DNA of 35,649 nucleotides from an uncultured Myxococcales bacterium (GTDB lineage: Bacteria > Myxococcota_A > Polyangia > Polyangiales > Polyangiaceae): the NCBI GenBank assembly GCA_937902985.1, contig CALFNG010000484.1, positions 1 to 35,649 of the forward strand, written 5' to 3'. Below, piece after piece: positions 11,824-17,246 of this stretch; position 1 is the first letter of the stretch; the number at the start of each line of letters is the position of its first letter. The position numbers were made by a program, and so were the translations under genes. The notes beneath the pieces were generated by a model. It had not been told where the DNA came from. It saw only the letters and a list, made by a program, of their open reading frames with translations, and made no database searches.

Positions 11824-13227
11824 ATGCGCCTGCACGTCCTCGTTCGCGTCTCTCTCTCCTTCGCGTCCGTCGCCGTGGCCTCGATCGCCATGCCGGCGCC
11901 CGCGACTGCCAGCGACGTGCAGATCCCGTTCACGAAGACGACGCTCCCGAACGGCATGGTCGTCATCTTGAGCGAGGACCACGCGGTGCCCCAGGTGGTC
12001 GTCAACGTCACCTACGGGGTCGGTTCTCGAATGGAGCGCGCGGGCCGCACGGGCTTCGCGCACCTCTTCGAGCACCTCATGTTCATGGGCACCCGCCGCG
12101 CGCCGACCAAGGCGTTCGACGCGTGGATGGAGGAGGCGGGCGGTCGCAACAACGCTTGGACCGCCGAGGACCGCACGGACTACTTCGACATCGCGCCGTC
12201 CACGGCGATTCCGCTGCTCCTCTGGCTCGAGGCCGATCGCATGCGCGATCTCGGGCCCCTCATCGACCAGAGCAAGCTCGATCTCCAGCGCGACGTCGTG
12301 CGAAACGAGCGGCGGCAGAGTATCGAGAACCGTCCTTACGGTGTCGAAGAGCTCACGTTGCCGCGTTTGGTCTGGCCCGATGCCCATCCGTACCATCACC
12401 CCGTCATCGGCTCGCACGAAGACCTCGAGGCCGCCAGCGTGGCCGACGTCAAGCAGTTCTTCGCGACCTGGTACGACCCCTCGAACGCGTCGCTCACGCT
12501 GGCGGGCGACTTCGATCTGCAGCAAGCGAAGGCGCTGATCGACAGAGACTTCGGAACCGTCCCGAGCCAGGGCAAGCCCGTGGATCCGGGCGCGCCCGGC
12601 TTCGACAAAGACGTGTCGGGCGCGACGGCCGACCGCTGGCCGACGACGCTCACGAGCGTGGTGCGCGAGACCGTCGCCGACAACGTCGAGCTCACGAAGA
12701 TCACGATCGCATGGCAATCTCCACGCCACTTCAGGCCGGGCGACGCCGAGCTCGATCTCCTGGCGAGCGTGCTCGGGCAGGGAAAGGCGAGCCGGCTCTA
12801 CAAGTCGCTCGTCTACGATCAGAAGATCGCGCAAGAGGTGTCGGCGCGGCAGGAGTCGCGCGTCCTCGGTTCGGATTTCGTGGTCGACGCGCTCGTTCGC
12901 CCGGGGGTCGATCCCGCCAGGGTCGAGAAGGCGCTCTTCGAGCAGGTGGCCAAGGTCCGCGACAAAGAGGTCACGAGCGAGGAGCTCGATCGGGCCCGTA
13001 ACACCTACGAAATGGAGTTCGTCGATCGACTGCAGAGCTTGGAAGAGCGGGCGTCGCTCCTCAACATGTACCAGGCCGAGACGGGCGATCCAGGCTTCGT
13101 GCAGCACGACCTCGATCGGTACCGCCACGCCACCGAAAAAGAGGTCCTGGCGTACGCCAAGAGGGTGCTCTTGCCGGATGCTGCGGTCGTCTTGACCATC
13201 GTTCCCAGGAAAGAAGCCAAGCGATGA
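11824..13227 (+). CDS. M16 zinc metallopeptidase, catalytic subunit
   Basis: A 467-residue M16 (pitrilysin/PqqL/MPP-beta-like) peptidase, exported by an N-terminal signal peptide (about residues 1-29, ending PATAS). The inverted zinc motif HXXEH is intact at H80-L-F-E83-H84 (FAHLFEHLMFMGT), and the third ligand is probably E162 (VVRNERRQS), 78 residues later. ASRLYKSLVYDQKIAQEV in the second half is the usual substrate-binding segment of the family. The ATG at 11824 gives a sensible signal peptide; a GTG at 11794 is less likely. Its stop overlaps the next start (ATGA), so both M16 genes are one transcription unit. Family knowledge suggests a periplasmic heterodimer that degrades small peptides; the substrate is unknown. 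Confidence 0.93.
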   Translation: MRLHVLVRVSLSFASVAVASIAMPAPATASDVQIPFTKTTLPNGMVVILSEDHAVPQVVVNVTYGVGSRMERAGRTGFAHLFEHLMFMGTRRAPTKAFDAWMEEAGGRNNAWTAEDRTDYFDIAPSTAIPLLLWLEADRMRDLGPLIDQSKLDLQRDVVRNERRQSIENRPYGVEELTLPRLVWPDAHPYHHPVIGSHEDLEAASVADVKQFFATWYDPSNASLTLAGDFDLQQAKALIDRDFGTVPSQGKPVDPGAPGFDKDVSGATADRWPTTLTSVVRETVADNVELTKITIAWQSPRHFRPGDAELDLLASVLGQGKASRLYKSLVYDQKIAQEVSARQESRVLGSDFVVDALVRPGVDPARVEKALFEQVAKVRDKEVTSEELDRARNTYEMEFVDRLQSLEERASLLNMYQAETGDPGFVQHDLDRYRHATEKEVLAYAKRVLLPDAAVVLTIVPRKEAKR

Positions 13228-14756
13228 AACGGTCTTTTTCGTTTGCGTCCGCCATCGCGCTCGCGACGATCGGTCTCGGGTTGCCGCTGGTCGCGTGCGG
13301 CGGAGCGGGGGCGCCGGCGCCGGCTCCAGCCGTCGCGACGCCCGGCTCGAGCGCCTGGCCGGCCGCTGCCATCCCGGTGGATCCAATGGGACCTCGTCCG
13401 GAGCCGCTGGCGCCGCCGCCGTTCATCCCTCCGTCGGCCGCGGTCTTCGCGGGAGCAAACGGACTCACCGTCTGGCTGCTCGAGCGGCATCAGGTACCAC
13501 TCGTCTCCTGTAGCCTCACTGTCCCCACGGGCGCGTCGAGCGACCCGAAAGACAAGGCGGGCCTCGCGTATACGACCGCGAACATGCTCGACGAGGGCGC
13601 GGGGAAACTCGGCGCCATCGAGCTCGCGCGCGCGATCGACGACATCGGCGCGCACCTCGGCACCGACGCGAACGCCGACGCGAGCTTCGTGTCGATGACG
13701 GTACTGAAGAGCAACGTCGAGCGCGCGTTCGCGCTCTTCGGCGACGTGGTCGCGCGACCGCGTTTCGAGCCGGCCGAGTTCAAGCGCGTGAAGGACCTCT
13801 GGACCAACGAGCTCCTCGCGCGCCAGAAAGACCCCGACGCTACGGCGCGGGTCGTTTACCGGGTGGCCCTGTTCGGCGCCGAACATCCGTACGGGCACCC
13901 GTGGGATGGCACGGCGCAGAGCGCGAAGGCGATCTCGGTCGACGACGTCCGGCGATTCTATGCCGCGTCGTGGCGACCCGACCGGGCGACCCTGGTGTGC
14001 GTCGGTGACGTCACCCAAGCTGAGCTGACGCCGCTGATGACGACTGCGTTCGGAGCGTGGAAGGCGCCTGCCACTCCGGCGCCCACCCCCCTCGTTCCGC
14101 CCGCTCCCAAGGGCCCCTGGCCCCGGCTCGTCATCGTCGATCGTCCCGACGCCCCGCAGGCGGTGATCGCCGCGCTCCGGCCTGGCGTCGGCGCGTCGGA
14201 TCCCGAAGAGCCCGCGCTCTGGCGCGTCAACGACGCGATCGGCGGCAGCTTCACCTCCCGCCTCAACCAAGACCTCCGCGAGGAGCACGGGTACACTTAC
14301 GGCGCGCGGTCGCGCTTCTCGCGTTCGCGCGGCCCGGGTCAAGTGGTCGCGTGGGCGAACGTGGTCACCGACAAGACCGGCGACGCGATGGCCGCCATGC
14401 TCGCGGACCTCAAGAAGTTCGCCGACGGCGGGCTGACCGACGGCGAAGTCGAGCGCACGCGGTCGCAGGCGCGCGGCGAGCTCGTGAGCGTTTATCAGTC
14501 CGATGAAGGCATCGCCGGGCACCTCGCCGCCGACGCGTCGCTCGGGTTGCCTCCCGACTGGGAGGCGAAGTCGAGCGCGAAGCGCGAGGGAGCGATGAAG
14601 CCCGAGCTCGACGCGCTCGCCAAGCAGTTCTTCGATCCGTCCGATGCCATTCTCGTCGTCGTCGGGCCGCGCGCGCGCGTTCAACCGATGATCGACAAGC
14701 TCGGCCTACCGCCGGCCGAAATCCGCGACGCTGACGGCAACGTCGTCGCCAGGTGA
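13224..14756 (+). CDS. M16-family lipoprotein, zinc site lost
   Basis: A 510-residue M16 homologue. The N-terminus is a lipoprotein signal (LPLVAC, Cys25), followed by a Pro/Ala linker to about residue 70. Where active members have HXXEH, this protein reads GLAYTTANMLDEGA: the His, Glu and His are replaced by Y116, A119 and N120, so it cannot bind zinc in the usual way. The C-terminal half keeps the partner-type features (RLNQDLREEHGYTYGARSRF). This matches the known non-catalytic subunit of two-gene M16 systems, where it shapes the chamber for substrate. It is translationally coupled to the catalytic gene by a 4-bp overlap. The product is probably anchored to a membrane facing the periplasm. 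Confidence 0.92.
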   Translation: MKRSFSFASAIALATIGLGLPLVACGGAGAPAPAPAVATPGSSAWPAAAIPVDPMGPRPEPLAPPPFIPPSAAVFAGANGLTVWLLERHQVPLVSCSLTVPTGASSDPKDKAGLAYTTANMLDEGAGKLGAIELARAIDDIGAHLGTDANADASFVSMTVLKSNVERAFALFGDVVARPRFEPAEFKRVKDLWTNELLARQKDPDATARVVYRVALFGAEHPYGHPWDGTAQSAKAISVDDVRRFYAASWRPDRATLVCVGDVTQAELTPLMTTAFGAWKAPATPAPTPLVPPAPKGPWPRLVIVDRPDAPQAVIAALRPGVGASDPEEPALWRVNDAIGGSFTSRLNQDLREEHGYTYGARSRFSRSRGPGQVVAWANVVTDKTGDAMAAMLADLKKFADGGLTDGEVERTRSQARGELVSVYQSDEGIAGHLAADASLGLPPDWEAKSSAKREGAMKPELDALAKQFFDPSDAILVVVGPRARVQPMIDKLGLPPAEIRDADGNVVAR

Positions 14757-14781: not shown

Positions 14782-15873
14782 TCACGCGTACGACGCCGCC
14801 GAGAGCGGTCGCTGCTTGCGTCCCGCGCGCTGCGACTGCGCGAGCTGCCCGAGCATCCGCTCGCTGGTCGACCAGTCGATGCACGCGTCCGTGATGCTCT
14901 GGCCGTAGACGAGCTCCGAGGGCGACGCGTCGTCTTCGAACTTCTGTTTGCCGCCGACGAGGTTGCTCTCGATCATGACGCCGAGAAGGTGAGGGGAGCC
15001 GGCCGCCACCTGGCGGCTGACCTCGTCGATCACGTCGGGTTGCTTCAAGTGGCTCTTGCCGCTGTTGTCATGGCTGCAGTCGACGAGAAGGCGCGGCTGG
15101 ACGCCGGCCCTCTCGAGCGCGGCGGCCGCCGCGACCACGTGCTCCTGGGCGTAGTTCGGACCGGCGCTGCCCCCGCGAAGGACGACGTGACCGTCGCGGT
15201 TGCCGGCCGTGCGAACGATGGCGACGCGCCCCGCGCCGTCGATGCCCAGGAAACTGTGCGGGCGCGACGCGGCCATGAGGGCGTGAATCGCCGTCGAGAG
15301 CCCGCCGTCGGTTCCGTTCTTGTAGCCGACCGGCATAGAGAGCCCGCTCGCCATCTCGCGGTGGGTCTGGCTCTCGGTCGTCCGCGCGCCGATCGCCGCC
15401 CAAGAGATGAGGTCAGCGTGGTATTGGGGCACGATCGGGTCTAGCACCTCGGTGGCCGCGGGCATGGCCATGTCGGCCAGTTTCGCCATGAGCTCGCGCG
15501 CGATGCGCAGACCAGCTGCGATGTCGTGGCTCCCGTTGAGATGAGGGTCGTTGATGAGGCCCTTCCAGCCGGTGGTCGTTCGCGGCTTCTCGAAGTAAAC
15601 GCGCATCACGACGAGCAGTTCGTCTTCGTAGCGGCTCCGCAGGCCGCGGAGGCGCTCTGCGTACTCGATCGCCGCCTTCGGATCGTGAATCGAGCACGGG
15701 CCGACGATCACGAGCATGCGCGTGTCGCGCCCGCGCAAGACGCTGCGGATCTCTTCACGCGTCCGGTACACGAGCTCCGAGGCCCCAGGAGAGATTGGCA
15801 CGTCGGCCTTCAGCTCGTCGGGCGTGCAAAGCGGTTCGGTGTCGATGACGTTCAGGTCGTTCGTCGGTCGCAT
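14782..15873 (-). CDS. aroG: 3-deoxy-7-phosphoheptulonate (DAHP) synthase, class I
   Basis: This enzyme condenses phosphoenolpyruvate and erythrose 4-phosphate, the first step of the shikimate pathway. The 363-residue protein matches the AroF/G/H family in length. It shows the metal/substrate motif IVGPCSIHD (58-64 including Cys60), RVYFEKPRTTTGWKGLINDP, the GARTTESQTHR segment, the SVGYKNGTDG-like motif (MPVGYKNGTDGG), DCSHDNSGK, and GVMIESNLVGGKQ. The ATG at 15873 has TGGAGA 6-7 nt upstream. The reading frame stays open further upstream, but only through the terminator hairpin, so the longer form is rejected. No other aromatic-biosynthesis gene is adjacent. Expression is probably controlled by the leader terminator at 15889-15924. 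It converges on the second M16 gene. Confidence 0.95.
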   Translation of the reverse strand: MRPTNDLNVIDTEPLCTPDELKADVPISPGASELVYRTREEIRSVLRGRDTRMLVIVGPCSIHDPKAAIEYAERLRGLRSRYEDELLVVMRVYFEKPRTTTGWKGLINDPHLNGSHDIAAGLRIARELMAKLADMAMPAATEVLDPIVPQYHADLISWAAIGARTTESQTHREMASGLSMPVGYKNGTDGGLSTAIHALMAASRPHSFLGIDGAGRVAIVRTAGNRDGHVVLRGGSAGPNYAQEHVVAAAAALERAGVQPRLLVDCSHDNSGKSHLKQPDVIDEVSRQVAAGSPHLLGVMIESNLVGGKQKFEDDASPSELVYGQSITDACIDWSTSERMLGQLAQSQRAGRKQRPLSAASYA

Positions 15874-15888
15874 GCGGATCTCCAGAAA

Positions 15889-15924
15889 CGAAAAACCCCT
15901 GGTCACTCGCGGCGACCAGGGGTT
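15889..15924 (-). terminator. Intrinsic terminator in the aroG leader (attenuator)
   Basis: On the minus strand AACCCCTGGTC (15924-15914) and GACCAGGGGTT (15904-15894) form a perfect 11-bp stem around a 9-nt loop, and TTTTT overlapping the stem foot follows, then CGTTT. It ends only about 16-20 nt before the aroG start codon and lies upstream of its ribosome-binding site, so it can only act on aroG transcription itself, or on read-through from upstream. This placement is the hallmark of transcription attenuation. Confidence 0.85.
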
Positions 15925-15986
15925 CGAAACCTCAGAGACAGTTCGTACTCTTATGAGGTCGACCTCCGGCGCCGCGTCGCCGCGAG
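15906..15986 (-). promoter_or_regulatory. Candidate antiterminator pairing in the aroG leader
   Basis: CTCGCGGCGAC in the leader (minus strand, 15986-15976) is exactly complementary over 11 nt to GTCGCCGCGAG (15916-15906), which is the loop plus three bases of the terminator's 5' arm. One more G-T pair can extend it. The two pairings compete, or they form a loop pseudoknot. Between them are further short complements (GGAGGTCGACCTC; ACCTC with GAGGT). No leader peptide rich in Phe, Tyr or Trp codons is evident, so the sensor is unknown. Confidence 0.5.
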
Positions 15987-16121
15987 CCAATAGAAGCGGA
16001 ACCCATAAAAGCGCTGCGTCGTGCCCAAGGTTTTCTAGGCTTAGCGCATCGAACGCCGGTCCGCACGTAAAAAATAGCTCAGCGGGCCGTCGGGAACGGC
16101 CCACGTGGTACCGTGCCGCCG

Positions 16122-17246
16122 ATGAGCCTCAGAAACGCGCGCGGCGGGGGGGGTGGTCGCGCGGGCGCGGGGACGGGGAGTCGGGGTGCCTCGGCTCCCC
16201 GCGCCCGTGCGGCGCTGGGGCTCGCCATGGTGTGGCCGGCCTTCGCCGCAGTCGCGTGCGGATCGGGCGACGACTTCGAGCAAGCCCCCGCTCCGCTCGC
16301 CGACGCGGCGCCGCGCGTCGACGCGAGCCCGCAGGTCGACGCGAGCCCGCCAGGCGACGCGCTTGCGGACAGCGACGCGGCGCCCCACGTCGGAGTGATT
16401 CTCCCTACGACGAACGGGCTCCAGTCAATCTGGGGGAGCAGCAACAGTGACGTCTGGGCCGTGGGCGACATGGGCACGATCGTGCATTTCGATGGCCACA
16501 CGTGGGCGCTCGTTCCGAGCGGGGTAACGGAGAACCTCACGTGCCTCACGGGCACGGGGCCGAAAGACGTGTGGGCCACGGGCGATGGCGGCAGCGTCCT
16601 TCACTGGGATGGCGCCGCGTGGAGCGTCGCGTCGAACGTACAAAATACGGCGCTCCTCGGCGTGTGGGCCGGTGCGCCGGACGACGTCTGGACCGTCGGC
16701 ATCGACTTCGACGGCGCCGGTCTCGGTGGTTCCGGATACGTGCGTCGCTGGAACGGCACCCAGTGGGACGACTCGGACGTGACGGGCACCGACACTCTAT
16801 GGAAGGTGTGGGGCTCGGGCGCCACCGACGTCTGGCTCGTGGGTACCGCGCAGCAGCAAGGTCTCGTCTACCGAGGCGCCAGCACCTTCGACGTCGTCGC
16901 GTTCACTGGCGAGTCCGTGCACGGAATCTGGGGAACGGGTCCGGACGACGTGTGGGTCGCACCGGCTTCGGGAGCCCTGCAGCACTGGACGGGCAGCGCG
17001 TTCGCGGCGGCGCCGCCGGCCGCGGCCGATCAGGGCCTCCATGGATTGTCGGGCACGGGCACCGACGACATCTGGGTCGTCGGAAACAACGGAATCACCG
17101 AGCACTACACGGGAGGTACCTGGTCCGTCGAGCCGACCGGTTCCCTCGAGACCCTCTTCTCGGTCTGGACGCCGTCTCCGACTGACGCGTGGCTCGTCGG
17201 CAGCGGCGCGACCTTGCTCCGGTGGGACGGGACGAGCTGGAAGTAG
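16122..17246 (+). CDS. Lipoprotein with a seven-bladed beta-propeller
   Basis: A 374-residue putative lipoprotein. A basic Gly/Ala-rich start leads to a hydrophobic stretch ending VAC (Cys near residue 46), then an Asp/Ala/Pro-rich spacer with the repeated unit VDASP. From about residue 100 to the end there are seven repeats of 38-48 residues following the pattern '(L)..(I/V)WG(S/T)..(D)DVW.VG..G.(I/V)..(W/F)(D/N)G..W'. Examples are IWGSSNSDVWAVGDMGTIVH, GVWAGAPDDVWTVG and LSGTGTDDIWVVG. Seven copies fit one closed propeller. Such repeats are common in myxobacterial surface lipoproteins (my recollection); no catalytic residues are apparent. The ATG at 16122 is preferred over the GTG at 16113; neither has a clear ribosome-binding site. 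Confidence 0.8.
   Translation: MSLRNARGGGGGRAGAGTGSRGASAPRARAALGLAMVWPAFAAVACGSGDDFEQAPAPLADAAPRVDASPQVDASPPGDALADSDAAPHVGVILPTTNGLQSIWGSSNSDVWAVGDMGTIVHFDGHTWALVPSGVTENLTCLTGTGPKDVWATGDGGSVLHWDGAAWSVASNVQNTALLGVWAGAPDDVWTVGIDFDGAGLGGSGYVRRWNGTQWDDSDVTGTDTLWKVWGSGATDVWLVGTAQQQGLVYRGASTFDVVAFTGESVHGIWGTGPDDVWVAPASGALQHWTGSAFAAAPPAAADQGLHGLSGTGTDDIWVVGNNGITEHYTGGTWSVEPTGSLETLFSVWTPSPTDAWLVGSGATLLRWDGTSWK

Follow-up and report, generated by a model that had tools for sequence, protein, structure and literature searches.

A probable trp-type transcription attenuator with an aromatic leader peptide in front of aroG in Polyangiales

The aroG gene in the window (the whole stretch of DNA analyzed, 35,649 nucleotides of an uncultured Myxococcales bacterium) encodes a DAHP synthase and is very probably controlled by a classical ribosome-mediated transcription attenuator of the trp type, to which we assign a probability of about 0.92. 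The assignment is based on a leader open reading frame (ORF) rich in aromatic codons, a conserved terminator, a conserved antiterminator pairing (regions 2:3) that excludes the terminator pairing (regions 3:4), and a spacing of these elements that fits in modelling. An earlier note on this DNA had proposed an attenuator at this position, and the conservation of the leader ORF, the terminator and the exclusive pairings makes that proposal very probable.

The aroG locus

The aroG product belongs to the AroFGH family of type I DAHP synthases (Table 1), and a search with the AroG protein finds a single AroG of this family in the genome to which the window belongs. A 250-bp gap separates the gene from a divergent upstream frame (16122–17243, plus strand) that has no Pfam match. 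On the other side, past the end of aroG, there is an M16 peptidase gene (13224–14753, plus strand). Because both flanking frames are on the plus strand, aroG appears to be transcribed as a single gene from the 250-bp gap. ARAGORN calls a 98 nt tRNA-Gly (ccc) at 16034–16131 on the minus strand, overlapping the promoter region and the start of the divergent gene; Rfam finds no tRNA there and the call is probably a false positive.

Table 1. Features of the aroG leader region (window coordinates).
Feature	Coordinates	Strand	Basis or remarks
aroG, type I DAHP synthase, AroFGH family	14782..15873	-	TIGR00034, E 5.8e-147; NF009395, E 1.4e-151
GGAG, likely Shine-Dalgarno of aroG	15880..15883	-	read from sequence
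Intrinsic terminator hairpin (regions 3:4)	15893..15925	-	T tract 15895-15891
Region 3, terminator 5' arm and loop, GAACCCCTGGTCGCCGCGA	15907..15925	-	pairs with region 2 or region 4
Leader peptide ORF, LGTTQRFYGFRFYWLAATRRRRSTS, TTG start 16028, TAA stop 15951	15951..16028	-	homologous ORFs in relatives
Region 2, conserved antiterminator segment, CGCGGCGCCGGAGGTC	15961..15976	-	best conserved alternative pairing
11-nt segment of the earlier note, CTCGCGGCGAC	15976..15986	-	perfect complement of 15916-15906; pairing unconserved
Aromatic codon run TTT TAT GGG TTC CGC TTC TAT TGG	15987..16010	-	predicted stall site; overlaps region 1; conserved in relatives
Putative -10, TAAGCC	16038..16043	-	position, and TANNNT-like hexamers of relatives; 17 nt after -35, 9 nt before leader start codon
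Putative -35, GTGCGG, weak	16061..16066	-	inferred by position; family consensus TTGCGC

Leader peptide ORF and terminator

The earlier note could see no leader peptide rich in aromatic codons and suggested that the sensing principle may be new. Both statements are incorrect; a TTG-initiated ORF on the minus strand contains six aromatic codons among its codons 7 to 14 (three Phe, two Tyr and one Trp). As this ORF adjoins the 11-nt segment that the note had singled out, which starts directly after the Trp codon, the sensing principle is that of a classical attenuator and a new one is no longer needed for the aroG leader. A competing ORF beginning with ATG (16006–15932; MGSASIGSRRRG at its start) does not carry the aromatic run and was rejected.

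The terminator itself is as the note described, with a perfect 11-bp stem formed by AACCCCTGGTC (15924–15914) and GACCAGGGGTT (15904–15894) on the minus strand and followed by a T run; with G-U pairs the stem extends to 14 pairs (15925–15893), after which comes TTCGTTTC. Folding of the leader is stronger than in all 200 of 200 dinucleotide shuffles (z = -4.28). Only one terminator is found in 600 bp compared with 0.4 expected by chance. Taken by itself the terminator therefore counts for little, and the weight of the case lies on conservation. Conservation in relatives had been named beforehand as a test, and its outcome favors attenuation: among 13 aligned leaders 89.5% of cells in the terminator are paired, with three covarying pairs.

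Conservation among AroG relatives

Relatives were fetched with the AroG protein from the order and phylum of the window and from public genomes, and include one from the same family (JAQSWN010000050.1, Polyangiaceae bacterium). An aromatic leader ORF and a terminator are present at 16 of the 17 Polyangiales AroGs with at least 58% identity to that of the window. Examples of the leader peptides encoded upstream of the closest AroGs are VQSARFFYGHFSWPAATRRPRLTS (same genus), MASRRFFWFGYWRAETAATGSSL and VSSVRFSYWFGFWPAATRRPGSASS, each ending at a stop codon. Between the leaders L112 and L115 a 1-nt indel follows the aromatic run, after which the peptides differ although the RNA sequence is retained, a pattern expected from selection on the sensor codons first and on RNA pairing afterwards. 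The sole exception at or above 58% identity is L128 (G125:C482; AroG 58% identical), which has neither leader nor terminator; the same genome also has an attenuated copy (L118), and the attenuator of L128 was possibly lost after duplication.

AroG isozymes with 57% identity or less are mostly without an attenuator, which is present in L141, L024, L155, L025, L158 and L151. On a tree of 85 AroG sequences the attenuator label requires 3 changes compared with 19.5 when labels are shuffled, and the attenuator thus tracks a subset of the AroG isozymes. By hand count, 19 genomes have an attenuated AroG isozyme beside at least one unattenuated isozyme, and in these a division of labor between DAHP synthases is directly testable.

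The specificity of the leader ORF was evaluated within the window and the Polyangiales loci fetched for holding aroG (547,406 bases, both strands counted). These contain 26 ORFs with at least five aromatic residues in ten; a terminator follows 14 of them, every one an aroG leader. A covariance model of the 13 leaders gives a single good hit in the genome of the window (E 5.6e-22; the next is 0.4). The aroG leaders account for its strong full-length hits across the order, the model having been built from several of the sequences against which it was searched. Weak matches outside aroG are mostly to the terminator part alone, and the full-length ones that were examined, L225 and L232, have no short ORF with five aromatics in ten; neither class was retained.

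Aromatic leader ORFs followed by a terminator also precede aroG elsewhere in the Myxococcota (L170, L174, L179, and L186) and beyond it in a Dehalococcoidia MAG (L056), a Proteobacteria MAG (L053) and Burkholderia sp. D-99 (L092), whose leader peptide is MSAKFYFYFFWYLRPLADREG up to the stop codon. The 2:3 pairing is clear in L186, L053, L056 and L092, and weaker or absent in L170, L174 and L179. Since leader, terminator and matching antiterminator are found together in L092, L053 and L056, which belong to other phyla, control of aroG by aromatic leaders may be widespread.

Antiterminator and modelled ribosome stalling

The earlier note had pointed to a segment complementary to the terminator loop and 3 bases of its arm, and the complementarity it reported is exact (CTCGCGGCGAC, 15986–15976, with GTCGCCGCGAG, 15916–15906). 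However, this pairing is not kept in the 13 relatives, where 53.6% of cells are paired, no better than in shuffles, and the segment is ruled out as the conserved antiterminator. The conserved element is region 2, located ~10 nt further on. Its pairing with region 3 occupies 85.8% of cells in the 13 aligned leaders, compared with at most 54% for versions slid along the alignment. Over 21 leaders the 2:3 duplex is stronger than in shuffles, with combined p ~2e-21 (dinucleotide) and ~2e-16 (codon), where no individual p-value could go below 0.001 and the leaders, being related, do not count as independent. In some distant leaders both sides have changed with the pairing kept, as in L116 (GCAACCGGGG with CCCCGGTTGC) and L151 (GCCCGGGGC with GCCCTGGGC); in L114, L158 and L155 it is weak. 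Covariation in the 2:3 helix is slight, with a double change at one pair in the 13-sequence alignment, because region 3 is nearly invariant. For the same reason a comparison of cognate and non-cognate 2:3 pairs, which often equal one another, is uninformative.

In most leaders region 2 starts ~7–14 nt past the last aromatic codon, corresponding to the edge of a stalled ribosome. Leaders were folded with a ribosome placed codon by codon and with 9 nt assumed to be hidden beyond the A-site codon, as is general for ribosome footprints. The modelled mean sequestration of region 3 before region 4 is made is 0.88 at the best aromatic stall, 0.78 at the last aromatic codon and 0.00 at the stop codon. 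In the window it is 78% at the Trp codon and 78, 59, 28, 22 and 1% at the codons that follow, and in nearly every leader the model shows a drop just past the aromatic run. The modelled spacing thus fits an attenuator in which region 2 is left exposed by a ribosome stalled on the sensor codons but masked by one that has reached the stop codon.

These features predict the following course of events, from transcription start and leader translation to stalling and the amino-acid response. RNA polymerase would start just upstream of the leader ORF with a ribosome following. A shortage of charged tRNA for Phe, Tyr or Trp would make the ribosome stall in the aromatic run (16010–15987) with its leading edge just short of region 2 (15976–15961), which could then pair with region 3 (~15925–15907), blocking the terminator and allowing transcription of aroG. 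When Phe, Tyr and Trp are all plentiful the ribosome would reach the stop codon at 15951 and cover region 2, such that regions 3 and 4 pair and RNA polymerase terminates in the T tract.

Putative promoter and leader start

Most Polyangiales leaders are preceded by TTGCGC-N17-TAgacT-like elements, with the putative -10 ending 6–13 nt before the leader start codon, and an evident Shine-Dalgarno sequence was not seen before most Polyangiales leader ORFs. The window has degenerate elements (GTGCGG and TAAGCC) and a TTG start codon, and an automatic sigma-70 scan detected no such elements. A transcription start downstream of the terminator had been named in the earlier note as an observation that would count against attenuation; the conserved promoter-like elements are situated upstream of the leader instead.

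In Streptomyces lividans the distance from the -10 to the start averages 6.3 nt (PMC8079986). If this spacing holds in the Polyangiales, the leader transcripts would be leaderless or nearly so, and the aroG leader peptide may be translated leaderless. The trait is not general, as two leaders of the wider phylum, L170 and L179, carry a Shine-Dalgarno-like AAGGAG ~9 nt before an in-frame TTG. The leaderless leader peptides of S. lividans have no Shine-Dalgarno sequence and begin at the 5' end of the transcript or a few nt from it, as is predicted for the aroG leader; they differ in involving other amino acids and genes, in starting with ATG or GTG rather than the TTG of the window, and in having starts mapped by RNA-seq, whereas those described here are derived from promoter spacing (PMC8079986).

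Comparison with known attenuators

The nearest known case is the AroR-aroF attenuator of Corynebacterium glutamicum (Neshat et al. 2014, as described in PMC11802643), whose leader peptide is also noted in PMC4046766. A leader peptide with aromatic codons there controls a DAHP synthase gene through ribosome stalling and a terminator, as is predicted for the window. However, the leader sequences are unrelated and the phyla differ, and the C. glutamicum leader contains Phe-Tyr-Phe and responds to Phe and not to Tyr, whereas the window has six aromatic codons including Trp and a response that is predicted. E. coli trpL and pheL share with the window pathway-product codons in the leader peptide, exclusive 2:3 and 3:4 pairings and a terminator before the gene, but they each sense one amino acid and act on terminal branches (the trp operon and pheA), whereas the window combines codons for all three amino acids with the common first step.

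Literature searches covering few subscription papers found no earlier report of such an attenuator in the Myxococcota and no description of aroG attenuation in Burkholderia, and the main text of a survey of premature terminators (PMC2965389) mentions neither aroG nor Myxococcus. Leader-peptide attenuation in the Myxococcota is well supported by the comparative sequence evidence, and it suggests how such bacteria adjust shikimate pathway supply to all three aromatic amino acids. The aroG attenuator is unusual in carrying codons for Phe, Tyr and Trp together, in acting on one of two isozymes, and in having a putative promoter near the leader start. A leaderless, three-amino-acid variant is plausible. 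The fuller proposal, that in Polyangiales one of two DAHP synthase isozymes is under a leaderless attenuator (with a UUG start here) opened by shortage of Phe, Tyr or Trp, is tentative, and we consider it somewhat less than an even bet. If true, ribosome-mediated attenuation would gain a new form in the Myxococcota, with three inputs and a leaderless transcript, acting on the first enzyme of the pathway.

Alternative explanations

Attenuation could be real with a single amino acid such as Phe being sensed and the remaining aromatic codons incidental. C. glutamicum provides a precedent, as its AroR contains Phe-Tyr-Phe and yet Phe limitation matters and Tyr limitation does not (PMC11802643), and codons for three amino acids therefore do not prove a three-way response. 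However, Phe, Tyr and Trp codons interchange between close relatives (e.g. L111 and L113), and folding predicts that region 3 is sequestered upon a stall at any aromatic codon, such that single-amino-acid sensing appears rather unlikely.

A riboswitch, T-box or RNA-binding protein of the TRAP kind might operate the terminator with the 11-nt segment as antiterminator, and the perfect complement of that segment in the window is compatible with this. Such a non-ribosomal sensor is nonetheless very improbable, as it is the aromatic leader ORF that is conserved and not the 11-nt pairing, and searches with Rfam cis-regulatory families (T-box, Trp_leader, Phe_leader and riboswitches) yield no match at the gathering score and nothing above chance level or convincing at relaxed thresholds. 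The hairpin might instead be an ordinary terminator that regulates nothing and either serves an upstream gene or is a remnant of one, and its frequency in the 600 bp is indeed close to chance. This is equally hard to credit, because the upstream frame runs the other way, leaving no neighboring minus-strand gene upstream that the hairpin could terminate, and leader and terminator are conserved jointly before aroG. A trp-type attenuator thus remains the preferred reading.

The Rfam search also gave a weak match to the P15 sRNA (16.8 bits, E 0.33), which was set aside, there being no P15 in Pseudomonas aroG loci. The Pseudomonas sRNA P14 (RF01669) is located downstream of aroG in five of the loci (L057, L063, L080, L087, and L094).
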